DNA of 33,332 bases from Melanopsichium pennsylvanicum (Eukaryota; Basidiomycota; Ustilaginomycetes; Ustilaginales), in assembly GCA_900208305.1 (NCBI GenBank), contig OAPG01000033.1:1-33332 (forward strand). Direction: 5' to 3'. A program made the translations under genes and the position numbers. Below, in pieces: positions 1 to 33,332 of the stretch (the first letter of the stretch is position 1; every line of letters begins with the position of its first letter). Below the pieces are notes generated by a model. That model saw only the letters and a program-made list of their open reading frames with translations. It was not told where the DNA came from and ran no database searches.

Positions 1-1180
1 AAGACGGTGCTTGGGCTCAAACTTCATCGACTCGCGCGAGTCGTAGATGAGGGCGAAACCAGTGGATCGTCCACCACCAAATGCGGTGCGCATGCCAAAG
101 ACGACACACTGCTCCTTGGGGGTCTTGTACATCTCCGAGAGCTTCTCCGAGAGCTCAGCCCTGGAGACGTTGGGGCGAGCAGGGTGAATGACATCAAGAA
201 CCATCTGCTTCCTCTGGAGCAGACGGTTGGTGATGAACTTGCGAGTTCGGAGGGTTACGGGCGAAGTGGAGTCCTGTAAATTGACAGCGAGCATTGCATG
301 GAATGCAGTAAAATGGTCAGCGAATCTCATGTGCAAAGGTGGTTTGGTGAATCGATGATGGACCTCTGCCGAGTCAGAATAGGAGTCAAAGTGACTGATG
401 CTGCGGCTGCGAACAAATGTTGTTGGTTAGATGATATGAATGTTGAAATCAAAGTTGATGCATGGATGGCAAGAGCGTTTTGAGAGTGTAGTTCGCTCTG
501 TTCGGACAACGGGAGCGCCGAATAATCCAGTCGAGCTTTGGTGCGTTGAGAAACACGGCGTGCGTTCCATGCACCAAATCCATCCTGGGTAAGCAGCGTC
601 TCGTTTGTCCTGCGACAGAAGCCTGCAACGCCTATGCATAGCTTCAGGACTGTCCTCACTGCATAGAGCGATCAACAAAGCTAATCAGAGCGAATTGTGC
701 CTTCGAGAAAATTCCGCATCGACCCCTTCTGAGCGTCGACGAATGACTCAATGCATGTCGAGGCCAAAGAGTTGAGATCGTGGGTGCGCTTTTGTCTGCA
801 ACAGTACTACCGTCGAGAAGGTGCACAACATATATCTTCCAGCAAGAAGAGCAGATTCGTGATGATTTTCTATAGTCCCAATGATCGAATGATACGTCTG
901 TGAAACGAGTTTGCTAATGTTGATGCTGATGCAAATGTAGACTGGAGCGTTTTCCAAATGCCGACATTGTCGCTGAAGCGCTCGGTTTGAGAGATTGTCG
1001 TCATGTTGTCTGGTTCACGGTCTTGCACCGTCGTATGCTTGTCTGCTGAAATCATGACTGTTATATGTCGAATGGATGTGTAGTTCGTGCGAGCAGCAGC
1101 ATCACTGTGATTGTGTGTCTGTGGATACGTGGCTGATTCGGCGGAGATCGGCATCAAAAGTAAAGGAGCTTACTCACCAT
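1..1180 (-). CDS. RPS24: 40S ribosomal protein eS24 (RPS24), 3' end cut by window edge
   Basis: Structural protein of the small ribosomal subunit. On the minus strand, bases 273 to 1 encode 91 residues that match eS24 closely, including [19 protein letters not shown], a [25 protein letters not shown] core and EPKHRL. About 40 C-terminal residues lie beyond the window. The exon opens with GAC right after a TTTACAG acceptor and has no in-frame ATG of its own. The best start is the ATG at 1180-1178, directly followed by a strong donor (GTGAGTA, from 1177). This gives an ATG-only first exon and a 904-nt phase-0 intron (1177-274), and the protein would begin [14 protein letters not shown] start-codon-only first exon also fits what I recall of eS24 genes elsewhere. 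It is divergent from USB1, with about 610 bp shared upstream. The protein call is very secure; the exon 1 choice is an inference. Confidence 0.92.
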
Positions 1181-1793
1181 CTTGACGAATTCTTGGTGAT
1201 AGCGAAGAGGAGCTAAGGATGGTGTCGAGCTTGATCAAGCACCAAACCACTCGCACACCCCGAGCCTCAGTCTCAGTCCACTGTCTCTTGCCCTTTGGCA
1301 CTTCAGTCTCGGTTTGCAACCACACTCTCAGAGACACTGGCCGAGACTTGCAATGCTGGCTCTTTAGTTTCAGACTCTTGGCGGTGTTGAGCTGCACGAA
1401 ATCAGCTCTCGACCAGGTTGCACATCGCGGTATGGCTCAAAGCTTGAATCCAAATTCAAATGTCTCGTATGCAGCTTGACTTCTTGGTTGAATACTCTTT
1501 TCTATTTCCGACCTTTGTATCCAAAATTCTGCCAGTAAAAAAATTAGCATAAAGGCCAGCAAAATTTTTGAGAGCGTGGGAATTTTTCTTGACCAACTGC
1601 AAATTGATCCACAGATTGGTAGACACGCTTCTGTTCGATCAACCGATCGGGTAATATCGGGAATTGCCATTCGGACGTTGATCTCGTTCGGAATTCGGAC
1701 TCACCTCCACTCATGGAATGGCTGCATTAACCGACTAGTTGCATTTGGACCCTTAATCTGCATCCGCACTTTTTACAATACCGATGACCAACG
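1181..1793. promoter_or_regulatory. Shared upstream region between divergent RPS24 and USB1
   Basis: This 613-bp gap separates two divergent start codons and should hold both promoters. I see no strong TATA box. Short ORFs on either strand show no family resemblance and look like chance. Near the USB1 side there is a T/A-rich stretch (about 1540-1570) and the short word ATTCGGAC occurs twice close together (about 1670-1705). No specific regulatory site can be assigned. Confidence 0.4.
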
Positions 1794-3138
1794 ATGAGCG
1801 ATGCTCTTGCCGGGTTATCACAGTACACAGACTCCGAAACCGACGATGTAATATCGTCTGATACAGACAAAGAGCATGCTGTTCCTATGCAAGTCGGTCA
1901 ACACGATCACAATAGAGATCGCTCGCCTGCGACACAACTACCGGTTTCAGGCCGTGCAAATTGGCTCAAGAGGTGAGCATCCCCTTTGGGACTTGCCATT
2001 GCTGTGTATCGTGGAACGGCTGCTAAAGCACAGAACGTTTTTTTTCTCTGGTCTCGCCGCTGTGTATGGGTACAGAAAACTGCCTCCGTTGGAGTTGGAT
2101 CGCCCGCCACAAGATGATGATGACGTTGACCCAGCAGCGGCAAAGTCAGCGACGAGTGGGGGCAGTGCAAAAAAGCTCACCCGTGGAGAATGGCTGTGCT
2201 ATTGCTTTGTCGAAGGTGAGTCTGCTTCAAGAGCAAGGTTGCATCCATAACGTATTTTTTCTGAACATAATTTCTCGCTTGCTCCTCAGTCCATGTCGAG
2301 CCCTCTCTAAACAAGTTGATAACAGAATGTCACAATTATCTGCAGAGACACCTTGGCTCTGACCACAACTTGCTGGACCTGCGAGTCTTCTCGGATTTAA
2401 ACAATTCGGAAGGGACATTATTGGCCAAGGGAGAGGCCTTGGCCACCCGCTCGATAAAGGGACAGCTGCACATTTCCTTGACCCGCCCGTTCACAGTGCA
2501 TAGCTACGAGCGTGAGGAGTACGTAAAGGTCGCTTCCGCCGAAGTCAGTCGTCTCAGAGACACAATTGGGAGGTGAGAGACACTATTCCTTAGATACTCT
2601 TCCATCAGAAGATGTTTGCGAGAGACTGACATCGAATTTGTTGTTTGATTAGCTTTGCCTTCTCTTTCTCAAGAATCGCTCATTTGGCCAATGATGACCA
2701 GTCGAGGAGGTTTATGGTCTTGGAAGTCGGTTCTGGTCGCGAAATGGTATGTTCGTAAATGCGTCCCAAAATTGTGATTTCAGGCCGTTGTGGTAATATC
2801 ATCATGACCGTCTGATCTATCTTGACTTTTTGTGCACTTCACAGTTTCAGAAACTCTCAATCTCTCTCAGCACCGAGCTTCGACGAGCATTCAAAGCAAA
2901 GCAGTACTACGAAGAAGCACGATTCCATGCAAGCACAGCATGTTTTCTCGACACCCCAACCACCAGTCACATTCAAAACGCCACGGATGCTACTGCGAAG
3001 ACACTGACACCATCTTTCTGCAACCTGGTCAGCAAGGTAGAGGCAAAGCGGGGTGATCTCCTCCGGAAGAGTCCACCCATCTGGGCTACTCGTGTCGGTA
3101 TACAGGTGGCAAATTGCGTATCCTATGTAGAGCTCTAA
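1794..3138 (+). CDS. USB1: U6 snRNA 3'-5' phosphodiesterase Usb1 (Mpn1), five exons
   Basis: Usb1 is a 2H-family phosphodiesterase that trims the oligo-U tail of U6 snRNA and leaves a protected end. I join exons 1794-1972, 2076-2215, 2290-2572, 2653-2746 and 2845-3138 into 329 residues. All four introns (103, 74, 80 and 98 nt) have GT..AG ends and the joined frame stays open. The family layout is complete. An acidic/Ser N-terminus (SQYTDSETDD) precedes a RGEWLCYCFVEV strand that aligns with the RGNWATHVYV of human USB1. The first catalytic H-x-S is at residues 167-169 (QLHISLTRPF). Next comes a FMVLEVGSG strand, and the second H-x-S is at residues 260-262 (RFHASTACF). Both catalytic histidines are present, so the enzyme should be active. 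The exons were assembled by eye, so a boundary could shift by a few bases. Confidence 0.88.
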
Positions 3139-3289
3139 CACAAACTCGTAAGCCATCAACACTGAATCTCTACTGATCGTATTTCGACGTATGCGTTGAT
3201 CAAAACAATCTGAACCTAACTCTTAACCGAATTGAAATTTAAATATATATATTATATACACTATAATTTTTCGAGATGGTATAAGAGGA

Positions 3290-3397
3290 TCCGAATTAGT
3301 TTAGTGGCTATGACGGCGCCTTGTCATCTTCGGATGCTTGTTCATAATCTCTGCGTTTCACACGGCGCAGACCCGGGTTCAATTCCCGGATTCGGAG
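3290..3397 (+). tRNA. tRNA-Asp (anticodon GTC) with a 36-nt intron
   Basis: The acceptor stem TCCGAAT (3290-3296) pairs perfectly with ATTCGGA (3390-3396), and G3397 is the discriminator. The anticodon stem GCGCC (3316-3320) pairs with GGCGC (3364-3368). The T arm is CCGGG-TTCAATT-CCCGG. The loop reads TT-GTC-A followed by an intron (3327-3362) at the canonical 37/38 position, then C, so the anticodon is GTC at 3323-3325. The four-base variable loop (AGAC) and TTCAATT T loop match fungal tRNA-Asp. A run of T (from about 3404) after the gene fits an RNA polymerase III terminator. The TTTCAC at the 3' end of the intron could suggest tRNA-Glu, but it lies on the wrong side of the splice point. 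Confidence 0.9.
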
Positions 3398-3403
3398 AAT
3401 AAT

Positions 3404-3416
3404 CTTTTTTTTTTTC
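3404..3416 (+). terminator. Oligo-T terminator of the tRNA-Asp gene
   Basis: A long uninterrupted T run starts 7 bases after the mature tRNA 3' end. Such runs are the standard RNA polymerase III termination signal. The position and strand match the tRNA exactly. Confidence 0.75.
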
Positions 3417-3419
3417 CCT

Positions 3420-4195
3420 TTAACAAGGCTCACGAACGCATCCTTGCCTGGCTAGCAAAGTATTGCGAGATTTTTGTCAGGTATCTGAAGCATTTCAAGA
3501 ACGCTTGGGGATATTTGAATGACCATTATCCTTGCCCTTCCAAGAACCCAACCAACTTGAAGCCAAATACTACTTTCGTCCAACCCGATCTCTGCCCGCA
3601 CTGCTTACTTACCCGAGATGAGCCTTCGACCGCATGCAGCGAGTCCACTTGGAATCTATCAGCGTTTCTGCCACCACTCTCGAAATTGAAATCTGCAAAG
3701 AATTCGAGACCAAGCTATTCAACCCTGACTTGCTTCTTGATATTGTGCGCCATCACCTCAAACCGCGCCTCGCACTCTTGGAGGAGTTGTCGCCCAAGAA
3801 TGTAATGCAACCTTTCCATTTTCTAGCGCTGGATGAGTGTGGTTCCATGTTGGCGTTGTTGTTAAAGTAGTCAGCATGGCCGGCTCGGACTGCGTTGACG
3901 CCGATCAAAAAGTCGTAGGAGAGATGGACACCTTTGCCTTTGGTGATAGATTTGCACCTGGCGCTGTAAAGTGAGGCAAAAGATCGATGTCGCTTCGACC
4001 TTCGGTACCAGGAGTGTGGACCCAGATGTGGTGCTCGCCCTTGTCAGAGTCGCGTGCAGATGGATTGAGAATGACCTAGAAGCATACGCCAGGATGACCG
4101 AAGGAATTAGAGAGGAGGGCGGTTTGATAGTGAGGCAGGTTGCGCGGGAGATGGGTAATGTGCCGACCGGACAAGAGGTGACGAACAGTACTTGA
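3420..4195 (+). pseudogene. Unassigned coding fragments, possible gene remnant
   Basis: Just after the tRNA the plus strand shows protein-like stretches in changing frames. One is at about 3430-3630 (ending PTNLKPNTTFVQPDL). A second, from ATG 3634, contains ETKLFNPDLLLDIVRHHLKP. A third, from ATG 3876, contains EMDTFAFGDRFAPGAVK and meets a TGA at about 3970. The frame that opens right after that stop contains VDPDVVLALVRVACRWIEND and runs to 4195. The switch at 3970 could be a frameshift or a missed intron, since GTGAGG lies there. I recognise no family. It may be a decayed gene, an unresolved multi-exon gene or chance. Confidence 0.25.
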
Positions 4196-4969
4196 GGATG
4201 CAGGGAATTGCGCAAAGTGACAGCTTTGAAGTCCTGGATCTGGCACTAGTTACGCTACCGAAGGCCTCGAGCCAATTATGATGACCATGGAAGCCTGCCT
4301 TTGGGTCCAAACAATTCCGCGGCCGAGGCTCAAATAAAGTTATGTCTGCGTACCACTGTTGTGGTGACTGCCAAAGTGTGCTGCCAGTCTCGGCGAGAAG
4401 GGAAAGAAAGAGAGCTTGTGGAAGAGGCTGAGGGAGCAAAGTGGGCACAGGACAGCCGGAAGTTAATTGGCCGCAAAAGATTCAGATGTGGTGAATGGTG
4501 CGATCTTGTGACACGGGAACGGCTGCGTTGAAAACAGAGTATTGGAAGGTGGACGGTGTGCGGACAAAGGAGTGAGGTTGCGTGTAGGTGTGGCTCTTGA
4601 CGTTCAATTCATCGTATGCGAGCTCGCACGGGTGCTGATCGGATGAAGGTGTGGGTGAGTGCGTAGAAGCGGTGATCCCAAAACGTCCGTGAGAGAGTTG
4701 TACAAGGTCGACATAACAAACGAAGAACTTCAAAATTGAGTGAGGGCAACATCTGCATGGCGCACATTCCTCTTTCTTCTTATGGCTTCATGGGTGGATC
4801 TTGCAGGTTGCTGCAGATGGTGGTGACACATCTAAGAAGAGATGTAGACAAGTTGCTTAACTCAGTCCAGGCCCATCATTCAATTTTGGCTCGAAGTACG
4901 GGTAAATTACGATATTGCACTGTCACTAGAGCCGAACAACCAAGACAAAGTTGAAAGCGGTGCGAAACT

Positions 4970-5090
4970 ATTCGAACCCACTTCAAGGCACGGCGGGTGC
5001 AGTAGTGCCGCGTGTGGGGAAGCGGTCAGTAAGTGTGAAGACCCCGTGACCCCACGCTGACACAAAGCGCGCGGGCCACTTACCATCGGT
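4970..5090 (-). other. GC-rich structured segment with RNA polymerase III box-like motifs
   Basis: On the minus strand a TGGTAAGTGG sequence (about 5086-5076) resembles a tRNA-type A box. About 105 nt downstream, GGTTCGAATAG (about 4980-4970) resembles a B box. In between, inverted repeats can pair, for example GGCAC with GTGCC and GCGTGTGGGG with CCCCACGC. It does not fold as a tRNA because the T stem GTGGG has no partner. It could be an unrecognised structured RNA, a decayed tRNA-like sequence or coincidence. ATG followed by GTAAGT also occurs at 5086-5078, but no convincing downstream exon was found. Confidence 0.2.
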
Positions 5091-6087
5091 CGGAGAATAC
5101 AAAAAAAGGAAAATGGTGTCTGTGACACTAATTTTTTATTTTATTTCATTTTTATTTCATTTTTATTTACTTTTTACCCCGCCTTGCTTCAGCGAAGCGA
5201 TGCTTTTCTTTCGCCACACTCGTTCCTGCTTGCCGCAGCGTCCTGTCAGAAGGATGGAAGCTGTCGACGAGCAAAGGGGGAAAGCAAAGGTATATTCTGA
5301 AGCGCGCGAGATGGGCTCTGATGTCATTCCAAGTCTCTCGATTTGATCGTATGCCTGATCGCTACTGACTTTTGAGCAGCGGCAGCCAAGATGTTGCAAC
5401 CTCCCTTTCATCAGCCTATCAAGCGAGATCAAGCCAAAAGTTATCGCTGAAATAAAGTGATAGCATTGCCGACAGACGAGTCAAGAGACATTGGACTGAT
5501 AAGCGGTAGGCTCGCGTGACTGTCGGGTCTTTGAAGTGTGTCAGGAGAGAAAAGAGGCCAAGACGAAGTCGAAAGAAAGTCCAATTGGTTATACACATCT
5601 GATGTTTTGGAGGGACAGAGTGGTAAGTTAGCGCTTCGCCTGACCTTCAAGGTCGAACAAGCACGTTCCATGTTCGTGGCGTCAGACCCGCCATCTCTGT
5701 GCGTGTGGAAATAGAGTTGTGCAGGGACAGTCAGCGACAATAAGGTGTTCCTTCCTCTGTGTGCTACCTCTCACACTCTGCACCCTGACGAGGCTGCCCA
5801 TTGTGACTAGGAAACCCGGAAATAATAATAAAGGCCGACGCCTGTTGGCCCGTTCGCTTGCAACCTCTGCCTGTCGCGGTTCGGAGGTGACACTCTGGGG
5901 GAGTCAAGTTGGCTTGCGACTGACTCTCTGCTCAGCATCGCCTCTCTTTCTGTGTTGAACTGCAACGTCCACGGCCAGCTCTTGCGGCTCTTGGCCGACA
6001 TTCCATTCAGTGCAATTCAATATTCAACCGCTCAAGCCTCCGTCTGTCGGCGCTTCCTCGATCCTGGTTTGCATTGCCTCGACACGC

Positions 6088-28429: not shown

Positions 28430-29006
28430 GCCCCTTGGCAATCAGCTGCTGCAAAGAATCTAGACCGCAAAAACCTTGTTCATTCAAGGCGTTTGTTTGC
28501 TCCATCTTTTAACATTCCCACTCATTCTTGCCTAATCTTACTCCTCGTGCATACCGCCATACGCTTGCCAAAACCATGATGGCACATTGTGTCCATTCTA
28601 GTGAAGGTGTGCAACTTTTTATCCAGAATTTTTGTTGTGCTTGTTTGCTGTTTTGGTCCATGTTGAGCCTTTTTGACACCTTGCTCCTTCAGATGCTGTG
28701 CTTATCCTGTTCCCTCAACCACATTGTGAGGTGGAGCTTTTAGTAGAATTTGCAAAGATATGCAGACAGCTGTATGTCAACACAATGTCTGGAAACAGCA
28801 ACCAATTGCAGACCCTGTGCTTCCAAAAAGTTCGAGGTGCCAACAAAGCAAGTGAACTTTCAAATCAACAAGGCAGTGTTCCATTGGATCTCAAACAAGA
28901 TTGCATAGAACCACATGTTTCATTGGTTTTCATGCTGAGTTACAATAGAACAGCCAGTTTCATTGTATCTCAAAATGGTACTTGGGTTTGGCACACCAGT
29001 TTCTGA
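28430..29006. other. Kinase 3' region passing into CpG-poor subtelomeric sequence
   Basis: The first ~140 bp look like the kinase 3' UTR with normal base composition. From about 28570 onward CG dinucleotides almost vanish while TG and CA are common. An open frame at about 28698-29006 is in the same frame as the helicase remnant that follows but shows no helicase motif I recognise. It may be decayed helicase sequence or unrelated. Confidence 0.4.
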
Positions 29007-29603
29007 CACTGTGCTGCCACCAACTGCAGTAATATTGCATATTGCCTGCAGAAGGTGAAATCAAGCACAGAGGTCATGTTTGGCTTCCAGCAACTGTTAT
29101 TGTGGCATGCATCTGGTCCAGTCATGATATTTTGCAAGGATAAGGCAGAAGCACAGTCAATGGCAGGGCACTTGGGATGTGCATGCATCACATCAGAGGT
29201 GGAGGAGAGGACCAGGCATGAGATCTTGTTTGATTGGTTGCCATGCTCAGCAGCAGAGAGGGAGAATAGCAAGCACATCTTGGTTGGCACATCTGCCACT
29301 AGTACCAGCATCAACCCACAGCATGTTGGTCTGGTGGTGCATTGCAGAGATGCATGGGATTTGGTCAGCTATGTGCAGGAATCAGGATGTGCTGGCTATG
29401 GCAGCAAGGAGACAGCTGCAGTATTTCTAGCAGTGGAATGTCCAAGGCAGGAAGAAATGGCCAAGTGGTATGTGGAAGAGCAGACTTGCTACCACCTTGT
29501 CCTTTCCCACTTTATTGATGGGTAAACTGTCACTTGCCTCAGTCAGCCCAGCCTTGTGTTATGTGACCTTTGCCATCAACATGTATTCCCTGCAAGAGGG
29601 TAA
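29007..29603 (+). pseudogene. Subtelomeric RecQ-type helicase (telomere-linked helicase) remnant
   Basis: This is the C-terminal half of a RecQ-family DNA helicase of the kind found next to telomeres in Ustilago and other fungi. Visible blocks are NIAYCLQKV, GPVMIFCKDKAEAQSMA (motif IV) and HILVGTSATSTSIN (motif V, family form GTSAMGTGIN). Motif VI reads YVQESGCAGYGS where RecQ proteins have QESGRAGRDG, so both arginines are lost. A TGA (29004-29006) precedes it and a TAA (29523-29525) interrupts it. Beyond the TAA the same frame continues with a Cys-containing tail (TVTCLSQPSLVLCDLC) to a stop at 29601-29603. The key Arg changes and stops show it cannot be an active helicase. It points toward the telomere, about 3.6 kb away. 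Confidence 0.8.
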
Positions 29604-29889
29604 TGTCAGGGGCCAATGTGCCTAACTTGGAATTCTGTTTAATATCCGATGAAATCTGGGGTTTTATTGTGCTTTGAAATGAAACCCGCTGGAAATGCAT
29701 TTTCTATCTGGTTTTGTTCTGAGACCTGCTGGAACCGTTCCAAATTGACTAGCCCCTGTGAACACTCCGTTCAGTGGTAGTGCAGCTTATCTAGATGATT
29801 GTGTGACCTGCGCTACACACAAGTGTCCTTAATGCACACGCTGGTCAATGTCTACAACGTTTCCTGCAAACTTGGGAGCTGTTGTTGTT

Positions 29890-30540
29890 GTCTGATAAGG
29901 CTACAGTGTGGGTTCCATTGCCGCAGTTGAGGTTCCGCCTACAGTGGAGGTGCTGTAGTGTCAGTAGAGGTGCTGACAGTTGTCGAGTGTGTTTGGTTTC
30001 TCCAATGAGGAAGACACAAACGCCGTAATGCTGCAATACCTGGTGATTGCAGCGGAGACAGGAAGTAGATACCAAGAAACTGATAACATATAACTAAGGT
30101 AATGAATAATAGAGTTGAATGAGCTCTGCTCCTCCACAATTGAAACAAATGCCCTCTTATATCTATCAAGCCCTGCTTGAAGTTCTTATCAGGATCCCTC
30201 TTATCAGGGACCCCCTTATCAGCAGTTAGTCTCCCTAGCTGCCTTGTGCCTGTATACGCTGGATTTGGCCCCCGTGCTTATCAGTGCTAGCTACCAGAGC
30301 CAGTAACTGCTTATTGCTTGACCCCAAATCCTACCAAGCCTGTTATTTGGACCCTCTGTACCTGCTGGAGATCCTTCCAACCCTTGTAACAGCCCTCTAC
30401 AGCCTCTGGTCTCCGCCCACGGCTTCTGGCAAGTGTCCAACCAAAAACAGCTGGAAACCCACCCTTTACCGGAACTCAATATGAGACCCAATAAAATCAA
30501 GGGTTTCATCTGGACTCATTCTGAGTCCCTGTAACAAAGG
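29890..30540 (-). mobile_element. Possible LTR-type retroelement remnant with GATA-motif array
   Basis: Read on the minus strand, this segment has features in the order seen in an LTR. It has repeated CTGATAAG words, a TATA-like GATATAAGAGGGC (30163-30151), a T/A-rich stretch with TCTATTATTCATTACC, and then TTGGTATCTACTTCC (about 30076-30061). The last resembles the start of a tRNA-primed binding site (TGGTATC). No polyprotein domain, flanking target duplication or second LTR was found, so this is only a candidate. Confidence 0.3.
30185..30222 (-). repeat. GATA-type motif array at 15-bp period
   Basis: CTTATCAG (CTGATAAG on the minus strand) occurs at 30185, 30200 and 30215, exactly 15 bp apart, with a fourth copy at 30277. 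This octamer matches the consensus for GATA-family zinc-finger regulators. Further GATAA words lie at about 29893 and 30082. Confidence 0.7.
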
Positions 30541-30994
30541 GCTTGGATGATCTTAGACTCCTTCTGGCTGCTTTTCCTTGCCAACTCTCTCATCACAGCC
30601 ATTTGGTGGCTAGGTAGCCTTGTATGTGGAGACATGGTGATGTTGCAGGCTAAAAAAGGCCCTGTACTGCTGGGTATGGTTGACATATGTTGCTACAACC
30701 TGTGTAAACAAGGACTGTTGCAGATGAACACAAATATGGTGGTGGTAGACCATATGGAAAGAAACAATAATTCTTGCAAAGCATGGATTCTCGCGACACA
30801 AGGATGTTTACGTAAGTGTCAAACGTCGAAACCTCAACATGGCAATGATCTTCGGCGAGTTTTACCGGGTCCAGCTGCCGATACCTGGCGAGCATAGCAT
30901 ACATTGATTGCCCTCGACATGCTTCCTTCTTCTGGTTACACCAAAGCTCCGCAGTCCATTCCCTTCTCGAATTCATCCTACTAAAATAGCAACG

Positions 30995-32422
30995 ATGAGC
31001 AGTAGCAGCAGTAGCATCAGCAGCAGTAGTAAGCCGCTCGTAGCTCTGATAGGCACCCTCGACACGAAGCAAGCCGAATACCAATTCGCTACGTCTTACC
31101 TCGAAAAGCACGGCTGCAACGTCGTCGTACTTGACGCAAGCACTAAATCTCCCCTTCGTGGTCCGTCCGATTTCCGCCTCGGTCCCACATCACAGCTCGT
31201 TCGACCACAGGAACTTCTCAAAGCACGTGTGGACAGCGACACTCGCGAAAGATCCGCTGTTCGTGAGGCCCTACGCAAGGCATGCCTTTCTCACCTTGCT
31301 CAACTGCAAAAAGATGGGGTGCTCAACGCCATTGCCTCACTTGGCGGCAGTCAAAACACAGCGTTTGCTACTTCCATAATGCGGGATGCTACCTTCCCCA
31401 TCGGTCTACCGAAGTTCATGCTCACCACCATGGCTAGTGGAGATATGAGCGAGTATCTCGGCGAGGGTGACATTTGCATCATGCCTTCTATCGGGGATAT
31501 TTCGGGTTCGCTGAACAAGATCACTTTGACTACCCTCCAGTCTGCTCTAGCGGCAATCTCCGGCATGGCGCATGCTCGACTCGACTCCGAGCAAGAAAAG
31601 AAGCAACCATCCGCTCAGCAACAGGATCACAAGCCCATGATCGCCATCTCCATGTTTGGCGTGACTACTGTTGCCGTAAATCAGATCTCAGATATTCTCA
31701 AGGAAAAAGGTTTCGAGCCAGTAGCTTTCCATTGCACCGGATCCGGCGGTCGCAGCATGGAGAGGCTCATTCGAGAAGGGTTCTTCGCAGCGGTAGTTGA
31801 CCTCACCACCACCGAAATCTGCGACCATCTCTATGGAGGTGTCCTCTCTGCAGGGCCTGATCGCCTCACCGCCGCCGCCGAGATGGGTGTGCCGCAAGTT
31901 GTCTCTGTGGGGGCGTTGGATATGATCAATTTCGGCTCGCTCTCATCCCTACCGTCCAAGTACAGACTCCAAGAGGGGGAGGGACCGATGCATCGCACCG
32001 ACAAAGGAACGCCAGTCTACGAGCATAATAGCCAAGTGACGCTGGTACGCACATCAGCAGAGCAATGCGAGGAACTCGGAAAGTTTCTTGTGTCGCAACT
32101 AGTCAAAGGATCGCAGAGGTTGGGAAATGGCCGAACAGCAGCACCAATCACCATTATCTTCCCAGCGGTCGGAATCTCAGCTATGGACGGAGAAGACGGG
32201 GTATGGGACGATTCGGGAGCGAGATCTGCTCTGCTAGCCGGTATGAAGGCTGCGCTTGCCAAGCATTTGCAAGGAAGACAGGAATCCGACTTTCACATCA
32301 TTGAGTTTAATCTTCACATCAACAGTCCCGAATTTGCAAGGAAAGTCGCCGATATGGCGGGTCGAATTGCCCAGCAGTGTGAATGTACAAATAAGCAAAA
32401 TACCAATCTTCATGACTCGTAA
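30995..32422 (+). CDS. UPF0261 (Tm-1-like, PF06792) protein, 475 aa, intronless
   Basis: Members of this family are widespread in bacteria and occur in fungi and plants, where tomato Tm-1 carries the domain with an ATP-binding fold. Biochemical function in fungi is not known to me. Conserved parts are LVALIGTLDTKQAEY (15-29), SLGGSQNTAFATSIMRD (115-131), FMLTTMASGDMSEYLGEGD (141-159), MPSIGDISGSLNKIT, a CTGSGGRSMERLI block and DLTTTEICDHLYGG. The second, TIM-barrel-like domain that accompanies it in some proteins is absent. The frame is open upstream to a TTG at 30908, but the first ATG is 30995. The Ser-rich start (MSSSSSSISSSS) is host-like low complexity. CpG content is normal while both flanks are CpG-poor. 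Its stop is about 740 bp from the telomere repeats. Confidence 0.9.
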   Translation: MSSSSSSISSSSKPLVALIGTLDTKQAEYQFATSYLEKHGCNVVVLDASTKSPLRGPSDFRLGPTSQLVRPQELLKARVDSDTRERSAVREALRKACLSHLAQLQKDGVLNAIASLGGSQNTAFATSIMRDATFPIGLPKFMLTTMASGDMSEYLGEGDICIMPSIGDISGSLNKITLTTLQSALAAISGMAHARLDSEQEKKQPSAQQQDHKPMIAISMFGVTTVAVNQISDILKEKGFEPVAFHCTGSGGRSMERLIREGFFAAVVDLTTTEICDHLYGGVLSAGPDRLTAAAEMGVPQVVSVGALDMINFGSLSSLPSKYRLQEGEGPMHRTDKGTPVYEHNSQVTLVRTSAEQCEELGKFLVSQLVKGSQRLGNGRTAAPITIIFPAVGISAMDGEDGVWDDSGARSALLAGMKAALAKHLQGRQESDFHIIEFNLHINSPEFARKVADMAGRIAQQCECTNKQNTNLHDS

Positions 32423-33007
32423 CCAGTTGTGTGGTTGACATGTTTGCAAAGTGGCCACCTGTGATCTTAAGGGTGAGTGGCTAGGCAAGAAATGGCAGAA
32501 ACGAGCAACTGCCTTGATAAGAACATCAAGATAGGCAGAGAATGAGTTGATGGATGATTGTAAGGACATTTTGTGTGATCCCAGTGCTAAAGGCTTGCGT
32601 GTTAAAACCCCAAATCTGGGGTGACTTTAGATCTCCTCATTGCTTTGTTGGAGTTGCAGTTGAGATATCTGGCCTGGCAGTTCAGCATTGATCCTGCTAG
32701 GCCAAGCACATGACCTTTTCCTGGCTATCGACAAAAATGTCTGTTCCTGACACTCTAAAATCAAAATCCAGCAGGCCACAAGCTTGTTCACAGCTGCAGT
32801 GCAAGAAAGACAGGGAAACCCAGAGACAAAGACACAGAAAGGAACAAATATAAAGAAAACCAATTGATTGCCTAACTTGAAGGAGTTGCTTGAGAGCTCC
32901 CAGCCGTGGCCACATGGTGTGCAAGTGGCGTACCGTATGGTGAGACGGTCACAAGCTGCGGCTGGAGAGCAATGGAAGGTGGGGTCCAAGGAGAAAGGCA
33001 ATCAATG
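32423..33007. other. CpG-poor telomere-proximal spacer
   Basis: No gene is supported. CG dinucleotides are rare until about 32900. A perfect 6-bp stem with 4-base loop lies at 32607-32622 (ACCCCA-AATC-TGGGGT). Its right part, AAATCTGGGGT (32612-32622), recurs exactly at 29652-29662 behind the helicase remnant, suggesting shared subtelomeric repeat sequence. Open frames on the minus strand (about 32627-33001) show no family resemblance. Confidence 0.45.
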
Positions 33008-33148
33008 TCAAAGGTTGCGCCAGGCAACGGTGTTGAGGCGCAGAGGAGCTGACACATTGGAGTAGAGGGCTGCCTTGGTAGTGGCAGCACGGTCAGCAGC
33101 TGACTTGTCAACATAGCGACGGAAGCAGTCGCTCTGCCACCGGCCGAG
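33008..33148 (-). pseudogene. C-terminal tail of a tyrosine recombinase, truncated by the telomere
   Basis: On the minus strand, 46 codons run from 33148 to a TGA at 33010-33008. The first residues, LGRWQSDCFRRYV, match the signature around the nucleophilic tyrosine of tyrosine recombinases (general form LGRW-x-SDaF-xRYi). The Tyr is encoded at 33115-33113. The next codon upstream is TAA, in sequence that already belongs to the telomere-like repeats, so the rest of the gene (including the catalytic Arg and His-x-x-Arg boxes) is missing. Fungal sources of such enzymes include Crypton and DIRS/Ngaro-type elements. Which one this was cannot be told from 46 residues. Confidence 0.6.
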
Positions 33149-33160
33149 TTAGAGGTTGAG
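33149..33160 (+). repeat. Degenerate telomere-like junction
   Basis: The sequence TTAGAGGTTGAG forms two imperfect telomere-like units between the recombinase fragment and the first perfect repeat. Variant units at the inner edge are typical for old telomere tracts. Confidence 0.7.
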
Positions 33161-33332
33161 GTTAGGGTTAGGGTTAGGGTTAGGGTTAGGGTTAGGGTTA
33201 GGTTAGGTTAGGGTTAGGGTTAGGGTTAGGGTTAGGGTTAGGGTTAGGGTTAGGGTTAGGGTTAGGGTTAGGGTTAGGGTTAGGGTTAGGGTTAGGGTTA
33301 GGGTTAGGGTTAGGGTTAGGGTTAGGGTTAGG
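33161..33332 (+). repeat. Telomere repeat array (TTAGGG)n, right chromosome end
   Basis: About 28 units of TTAGGG run to the window end with the G-rich strand 5'-3' outward, as at a right chromosome end. Two adjacent shortened units (TTAGG, 33198-33207) occur after the sixth perfect unit; the other units are perfect. The array probably continues beyond the window. Confidence 0.97.

Follow-up and report, generated by a model that had tools for sequence, protein, structure and literature searches.

The right-hand end of contig C33 of Melanopsichium pennsylvanicum raises the question of why telomere repeats should begin within what looks like the gene of a tyrosine recombinase (YR). The contig, 33,332 bases long, was analyzed over its whole length (the window) and is one of the 61 contigs of a 21.1-Mb genome, cited below as C1, C2, and so on. 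An earlier note on this DNA had offered two answers: a broken chromosome healed by telomere addition within a mobile element, or an element residing at telomeres, or inserting into them, whose 3' coding end faces inward.

The recombinase fragment and the telomere junction

Translation of the minus strand gave the frame LGRWQSDCFRRYV...WRNL-stop, with 46 codons at 33148-33011 and the stop at 33010-33008, which bears out the start in the LGRW region and the stop 33 codons past the quoted motif described in the earlier note. A telomere-like tract begins at 33149 with TTAGAGG TTGAGG and continues as TTAGGG repeats from 33162 to 33332, the contig end, the single interruption of the array being two TTAGG units; terminal repeats total 184 bp. 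The YR coding part therefore stops at 33148. The telomere-like sequence does lie directly upstream of the Leu codon, as had been noticed, but the coding part does not reach 33160. The codon immediately preceding this Leu is a TAA stop built by the telomere-like sequence, and the frame has no start codon; the YR of the window is therefore a dead 3' fragment. The right end of the window is composed as follows, from the contig end inward:

33162..33332, plus strand: (TTAGGG)n telomere array reaching the contig end, with its G-rich strand outward
33149..33161, plus strand: degenerate innermost telomere-like units TTAGAGG TTGAGG, in the position held by upstream YR coding sequence in 7/7 other copies
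33011..33148, minus strand: last 46 codons of the YR gene, 5' remainder absent, stop at 33008-33010 (translation, genomic copies, Pfam, conserved W and Y)
32912..33010, minus strand: stop codon and the stretch from the YR gene to the B1 repeat, homologous to other copies (92% to the C10 copy over 32759-33148)
32759..32911, minus strand: B1 repeat, about 153 bp, recognized by its end motif and by matches to B repeats in the copies on C1 and C18 and in solo A-B units (C2, C13)
32700..32758, minus strand: beginning of A2, recognized by alignment to A repeats at other sites (82-95% identity)

The 46 residues matched seven other sites of the genome, on C1, C3, C10, C13, C15, and C18 (twice), with 80-91% identity over residues 1-45 and E values of 1.2e-19 to 3.0e-23, each site lying within a stop-free 363-codon open frame. 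Full-length copies had been proposed as a check on the identity of the fragment, and in 7/7 of them the LGRW stretch belongs to the recombinase frame, not to an unrelated protein or a non-coding repeat. The Pfam family Phage_integrase (PF00589) matched the full-length C3 copy above the cut-off (E 1.4e-8), whereas a Pfam search with the 46-residue fragment alone gave no match, so that the anticipated profile similarity to recombinases holds for the full-length copy and not for the fragment by itself. With these E values in the genome and the Pfam match, the similarity of the fragment goes far beyond chance. A search of PDB sequences with the full-length YR returned no recombinase among its four matches at E<=10 (the best, at 0.26, and the others being unrelated), and the recombinase fold thus rests on Pfam and the alignment described below.

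When the C10 copy was used as a protein query, 7,996 candidates were scored and 554 of them were relatives at E<=0.001; many of the best 120 of these 554 were named from Ustilago species. In an alignment of 30 chosen proteins, seven from this genome and 23 others, H295 was invariant and R186, W321, and Y329 were conserved in at least 90%; we take these four to be catalytic positions. W321 and Y329 are the W and the Y of the window motif LGRW...FRRY. An HxxR motif is expected in tyrosine recombinases; the Arg three residues past H295 was the majority residue, yet below 90% in the 30-protein alignment, and Cys replaces it in at least one copy of this genome. Altogether, the comparisons support the reading of the window fragment as part of a tyrosine recombinase of a mobile element, as the earlier note had proposed.

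In 7/7 other copies, the coding sequence upstream of LGRW reads (R/C)RGA(A/V)TWAA(S/A)NGV(N/D)ADTIRG, and in the window TTAGAGGTTGAGG takes its place from 33149 on, with the canonical repeats behind it. Since all seven copies continue coding past this point, the break in the window lies inside the gene and not at an end of the element. The outward-facing telomere repeats sit directly on truncated non-telomeric sequence. The final native base is a G that falls in register with the TTAG behind it, making a 1-nt seed, which is compatible with telomerase, as weak evidence.

The window copy, whose nearest relative is the C10 copy, keeps 138 bp of YR, B1 with the stretch that separates it from YR, and approximately 60 bp of A2; farther inward the homology fades, the sequence being too diverged to be clearly recognized. 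The flank at 32430-32695 had no match elsewhere in the genome, and an open frame with UPF0261 domains stops at 32422. Searches of the genome with window positions 1-6000 and 28430-32760 revealed no second copy except for dispersed repeats, as expected of a true chromosome end, and the first 1500 bases of the contig showed no overlap at E<=1e-3 with the left ends read, including that of C6.

The CpG observed/expected ratio was 0.90-1.04 in five gene stretches of the window and 0.73 in the YR fragment itself. CpG was strongly depleted at 28430-30700 and 32430-33010 (observed/expected 0.10-0.33); such depletion beside these genes suggests methylation- or RIP-like decay of repeats and their flanks. 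In the homologous piece of the element, the ratio was 0.52 in the window vs. 0.82-1.05 in the seven copies, and 11 of the 31 differences found between the window and the C10 copy in 393 columns were CpG losses in the window, with none in C10. The window copy is decayed. A recently healed end, as the earlier note had it, found no support: the copy is CpG-decayed and the innermost telomere-like units are degenerate, and neither feature dates the junction. G-rich variants resembling these units were also visible by inspection at C2 and C21; telomere arrays were defined throughout as starting at canonical units.

The parent element

The longer relatives of the fragment allowed the element to be classified. 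In the C3 copy, RVT_1 (1.4e-9), RT_RNaseH (4.3e-7), and Phage_integrase (1.4e-8) all scored above the Pfam cut-off, with reverse transcriptase (RT) and RNase H upstream of YR, and all three are thus combined in one element. In the C13 copy, RVT_1 was above the cut-off (2.5e-10) and RT_RNaseH below it (0.0016). The C1 copy is ordered A1 - coding - B1 - A2 - B2, followed by one further A-B unit, with a period of 467 bp. A1, B1, A2, and B2 are also present in one C18 copy, so that split direct repeats of the A-pol-B-A-B type were found in both. The C3 copy has only A1 and B1 and the C10 copy only B1, and solo A-B units occur on C2 and C13. The ends of the element are GTTAGAGTGTCAGG and GGATGTTGAT; the five copies inspected all have flanking sequence that is non-telomeric. 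The C18 copy is interrupted by a Ty3 element: in the region C18:299700-313635, a 7.6-kb Ty3 is nested in the YR retrotransposon copy; its LTRs measure about 432 bp and are 99% alike, and it is accompanied by a TTTGG duplication.

Cryptons are YR DNA transposons without reverse transcriptase. The elements described here share the tyrosine recombinase with them and, unlike them, carry RT and RNase H; a Crypton was rejected because the C3 copy has both of these domains upstream of YR and the C13 copy has RT. DIRS was rejected as well, since no inverted pairs of at least 40 bp (seed 14) were detected in 10-kb stretches of C1, C3, and C10, and no N6-adenine methyltransferase (PF05869) was found among the Pfam matches at E<=1 in nine frames. 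A long frame downstream of RNase H that overlaps YR was considered as a possible methyltransferase and appears low-complexity. The architecture fits a Ngaro-like YR retrotransposon; this assignment, made by architecture and not by a tree, leaves room for the PAT type, another split-direct-repeat YR element.

The survey by Muszewska et al. (2013, PMC3783388) describes the Ngaro architecture in Basidiomycota and reports Ngaro as absent from Ustilaginomycetes. Like the Ngaro elements, the copies found here combine RT, RNase H, and YR, with no methyltransferase found, and those on C1 and C18 have the A-pol-B-A-B direct repeats; unlike those of the 2013 survey, they come from a smut, and the window copy is a fragment only. 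Our data indicate that Ngaro-like elements are present in the Ustilaginales, where the 2013 survey found none. In the literature surveyed on Ustilaginales/Melanopsichium, Ngaro/DIRS, and telomere addition, no description of such elements in Ustilaginales was recognized, and the words DIRS and Ngaro do not occur in the main text of PMC9603552, PMC5106213, and PMC5897528.

Other chromosome ends of the genome

Twenty-three telomeric left ends were read, namely 22 of those of C1-C23 (C6 has no telomere) and that of C40; the right ends read were those of the window and C2. In 10/23 left ends the telomere edge lies no more than 12 bp from an interrupted repeat, in both orientations. At the left ends of C1, C3, C16, and C22, the edge is on Ty3 coding sequence with integrase or RT domains (Pfam), the query for these four being the end itself and the repeat status coming from the Pfam domains and Ty3 comparisons. 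At the left ends of C5, C9, C19, C21, C23, and C40, it is at a dispersed repeat of about 930 bp, which is also present in the window at approximately 29604-30536 and has at least 88 matching pieces genome-wide, the window's own included. The remaining 13/23 left ends had no tested repeat at the telomere edge, and the C2 right telomere begins in sequence not recognized as repeat. A telomere on a broken repeat is not an unusual junction in this genome. Such a junction becomes a countable event, and with 10/23 other ends starting on or beside broken repeats, the break-and-heal frequency of smut ends could be measured with long-read or multi-strain data.

The breaks in the dispersed repeat (about 930-940 bp) are at positions 107, 236, 279, 339, 371, and 887; four of the six fall within 135 bp (236 to 371), a clustering that could be due to chance. 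The left ends of C16 (C16:1-1500) and C22 (C22:1-1000) have their telomere caps at a shared 24-bp stretch of a Ty3 RT, one on each side of it. The C18 copy of this Ty3 has its 5-bp TTTGG duplication on both sides. The sequence next to the C22 half is GTTTC, and that next to the C16 half is GGAAA; the two halves therefore come from different insertions, and a chromosome fission or one split Ty3 insertion was rejected for this pair. Taken with the four clustered breaks, this 24-bp coincidence would fit a reading with recurrent break sites, in which smut ends would turn over by repeated retroelement breakage and re-capping; we consider this generalization speculative and rather unlikely.

Several other features of the contig ends were observed. 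The left ends of C4 and C11 share the same sequence directly after the telomere. G/T-rich fillers such as TGGGCGTGTGGACGGGCGTG and CGGGCGTGTGGAT interrupt the arrays at the left ends of C1, C14, and C40 and at the inner edge of the C21 left end, and they may represent a shared motif. By eye, the first 1000 bases of many of the small contigs among C24-C32, C34-C39, and C41 look AT-rich and of mitochondrial type, not like nuclear ends.

Origin of the chromosome end

SART/TRAS are telomere-targeted retroelements, and the second answer of the earlier note would place the window element beside them, as a YR retroelement that inserts at telomeric repeats or lives in them, its 3' coding end pointing inward. 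One copy, that of the window, does adjoin a telomere in this orientation. Near the C2 right telomere there is a solo A-B unit, about 0.23 kb inward of it, and fragments of A/B repeats are present 0.6-0.9 kb inward of the C9 left telomere. Against this, the YR-bearing copies are interior in 7/7 cases, the C15 copy at about 15 kb from a contig end and the other six at more than 100 kb (C10 and C18 have 741,870 and 556,139 bases, respectively). None of the 23 other telomeric ends read abuts this element, so the recurrence of the junction at other ends of the same genome, which the earlier note had wished to see checked, was not observed (0/23 left ends), and searches with the C3 and C10 copies gave no other contig-end-abutting match among the matches listed. 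The GTTAGAGTGTCAGG...GGATGTTGAT ends have non-telomeric flanks in five copies, and the junction falls within the YR gene. A pattern of copies at telomeres with telomere repeats at the element end was thus not found; a telomere-specific element was rejected, its probability being very small indeed, and a new kind of telomere-associated element, as suggested earlier, is unsupported.

The junction might also have been made in the assembly, by misjoining a telomeric read end to a truncated element copy from an internal site, and the contig is indeed only 33 kb long, with 184 bp of terminal repeats, and comes from a single assembly. We hold such an artefact to be improbable, given that the repeats are terminal and correctly oriented with a degenerate inner edge, that comparable junctions occur at 10/23 other ends, and that the flank at 32430-32695 matches nothing else in the genome. 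No better a chance is given to a telomere captured by recombination, in which break-induced replication would have copied the telomere of another end onto the broken element. The left ends of C4 and C11 begin alike, and copying from one end to another may thus take place here, and such a capture would give the same appearance as healing; however, no other end with the YR junction appeared among the matches listed and the ends read, and YR adjoins the telomere with no intervening subtelomeric sequence.

Breakage or erosion inside an old Ngaro-like copy, followed by telomere re-capping, best explains this chromosome end, with a probability that we estimate at about 0.85; of the two earlier answers, it is the broken end healed by telomere addition within a mobile element that is supported. 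The old, decayed copy would have lain with its 3' end inward, just beyond the UPF0261 gene. Breakage or end erosion may then have cut it within the recombinase gene, so that the distal DNA (RT/RNase H, the 5' repeat, the larger part of YR, and anything beyond) would have been lost. New TTAGGG repeats would then have been added to the raw end, telomerase acting from a minimal seed being the most likely agent. We favor healing because the frames of 7/7 copies run through the breakpoint, the outward telomere runs to the contig end, and 10/23 other ends show comparable junctions; the match of the 1-nt seed to the new telomeres of Magnaporthe adds a weak argument. Counting against it, the breaks in the dispersed repeat are less scattered than random breakage might give, and 13/23 left ends and the C2 right end have no recognized repeat at the telomere edge.

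In Magnaporthe (PMC7367193), 19/24 new telomeres at rDNA ends grew from seeds of 1-4 nt, and truncated retroelements were re-capped likewise. The Ngaro-like element differs from the MoTeRs, which are inserted in telomeres, in that it was not found inserted there. The junction in the window resembles the rDNA ends and MoTeR junctions of the same source in that telomere repeats sit directly on a sequence truncated internally, the seed being short or absent.
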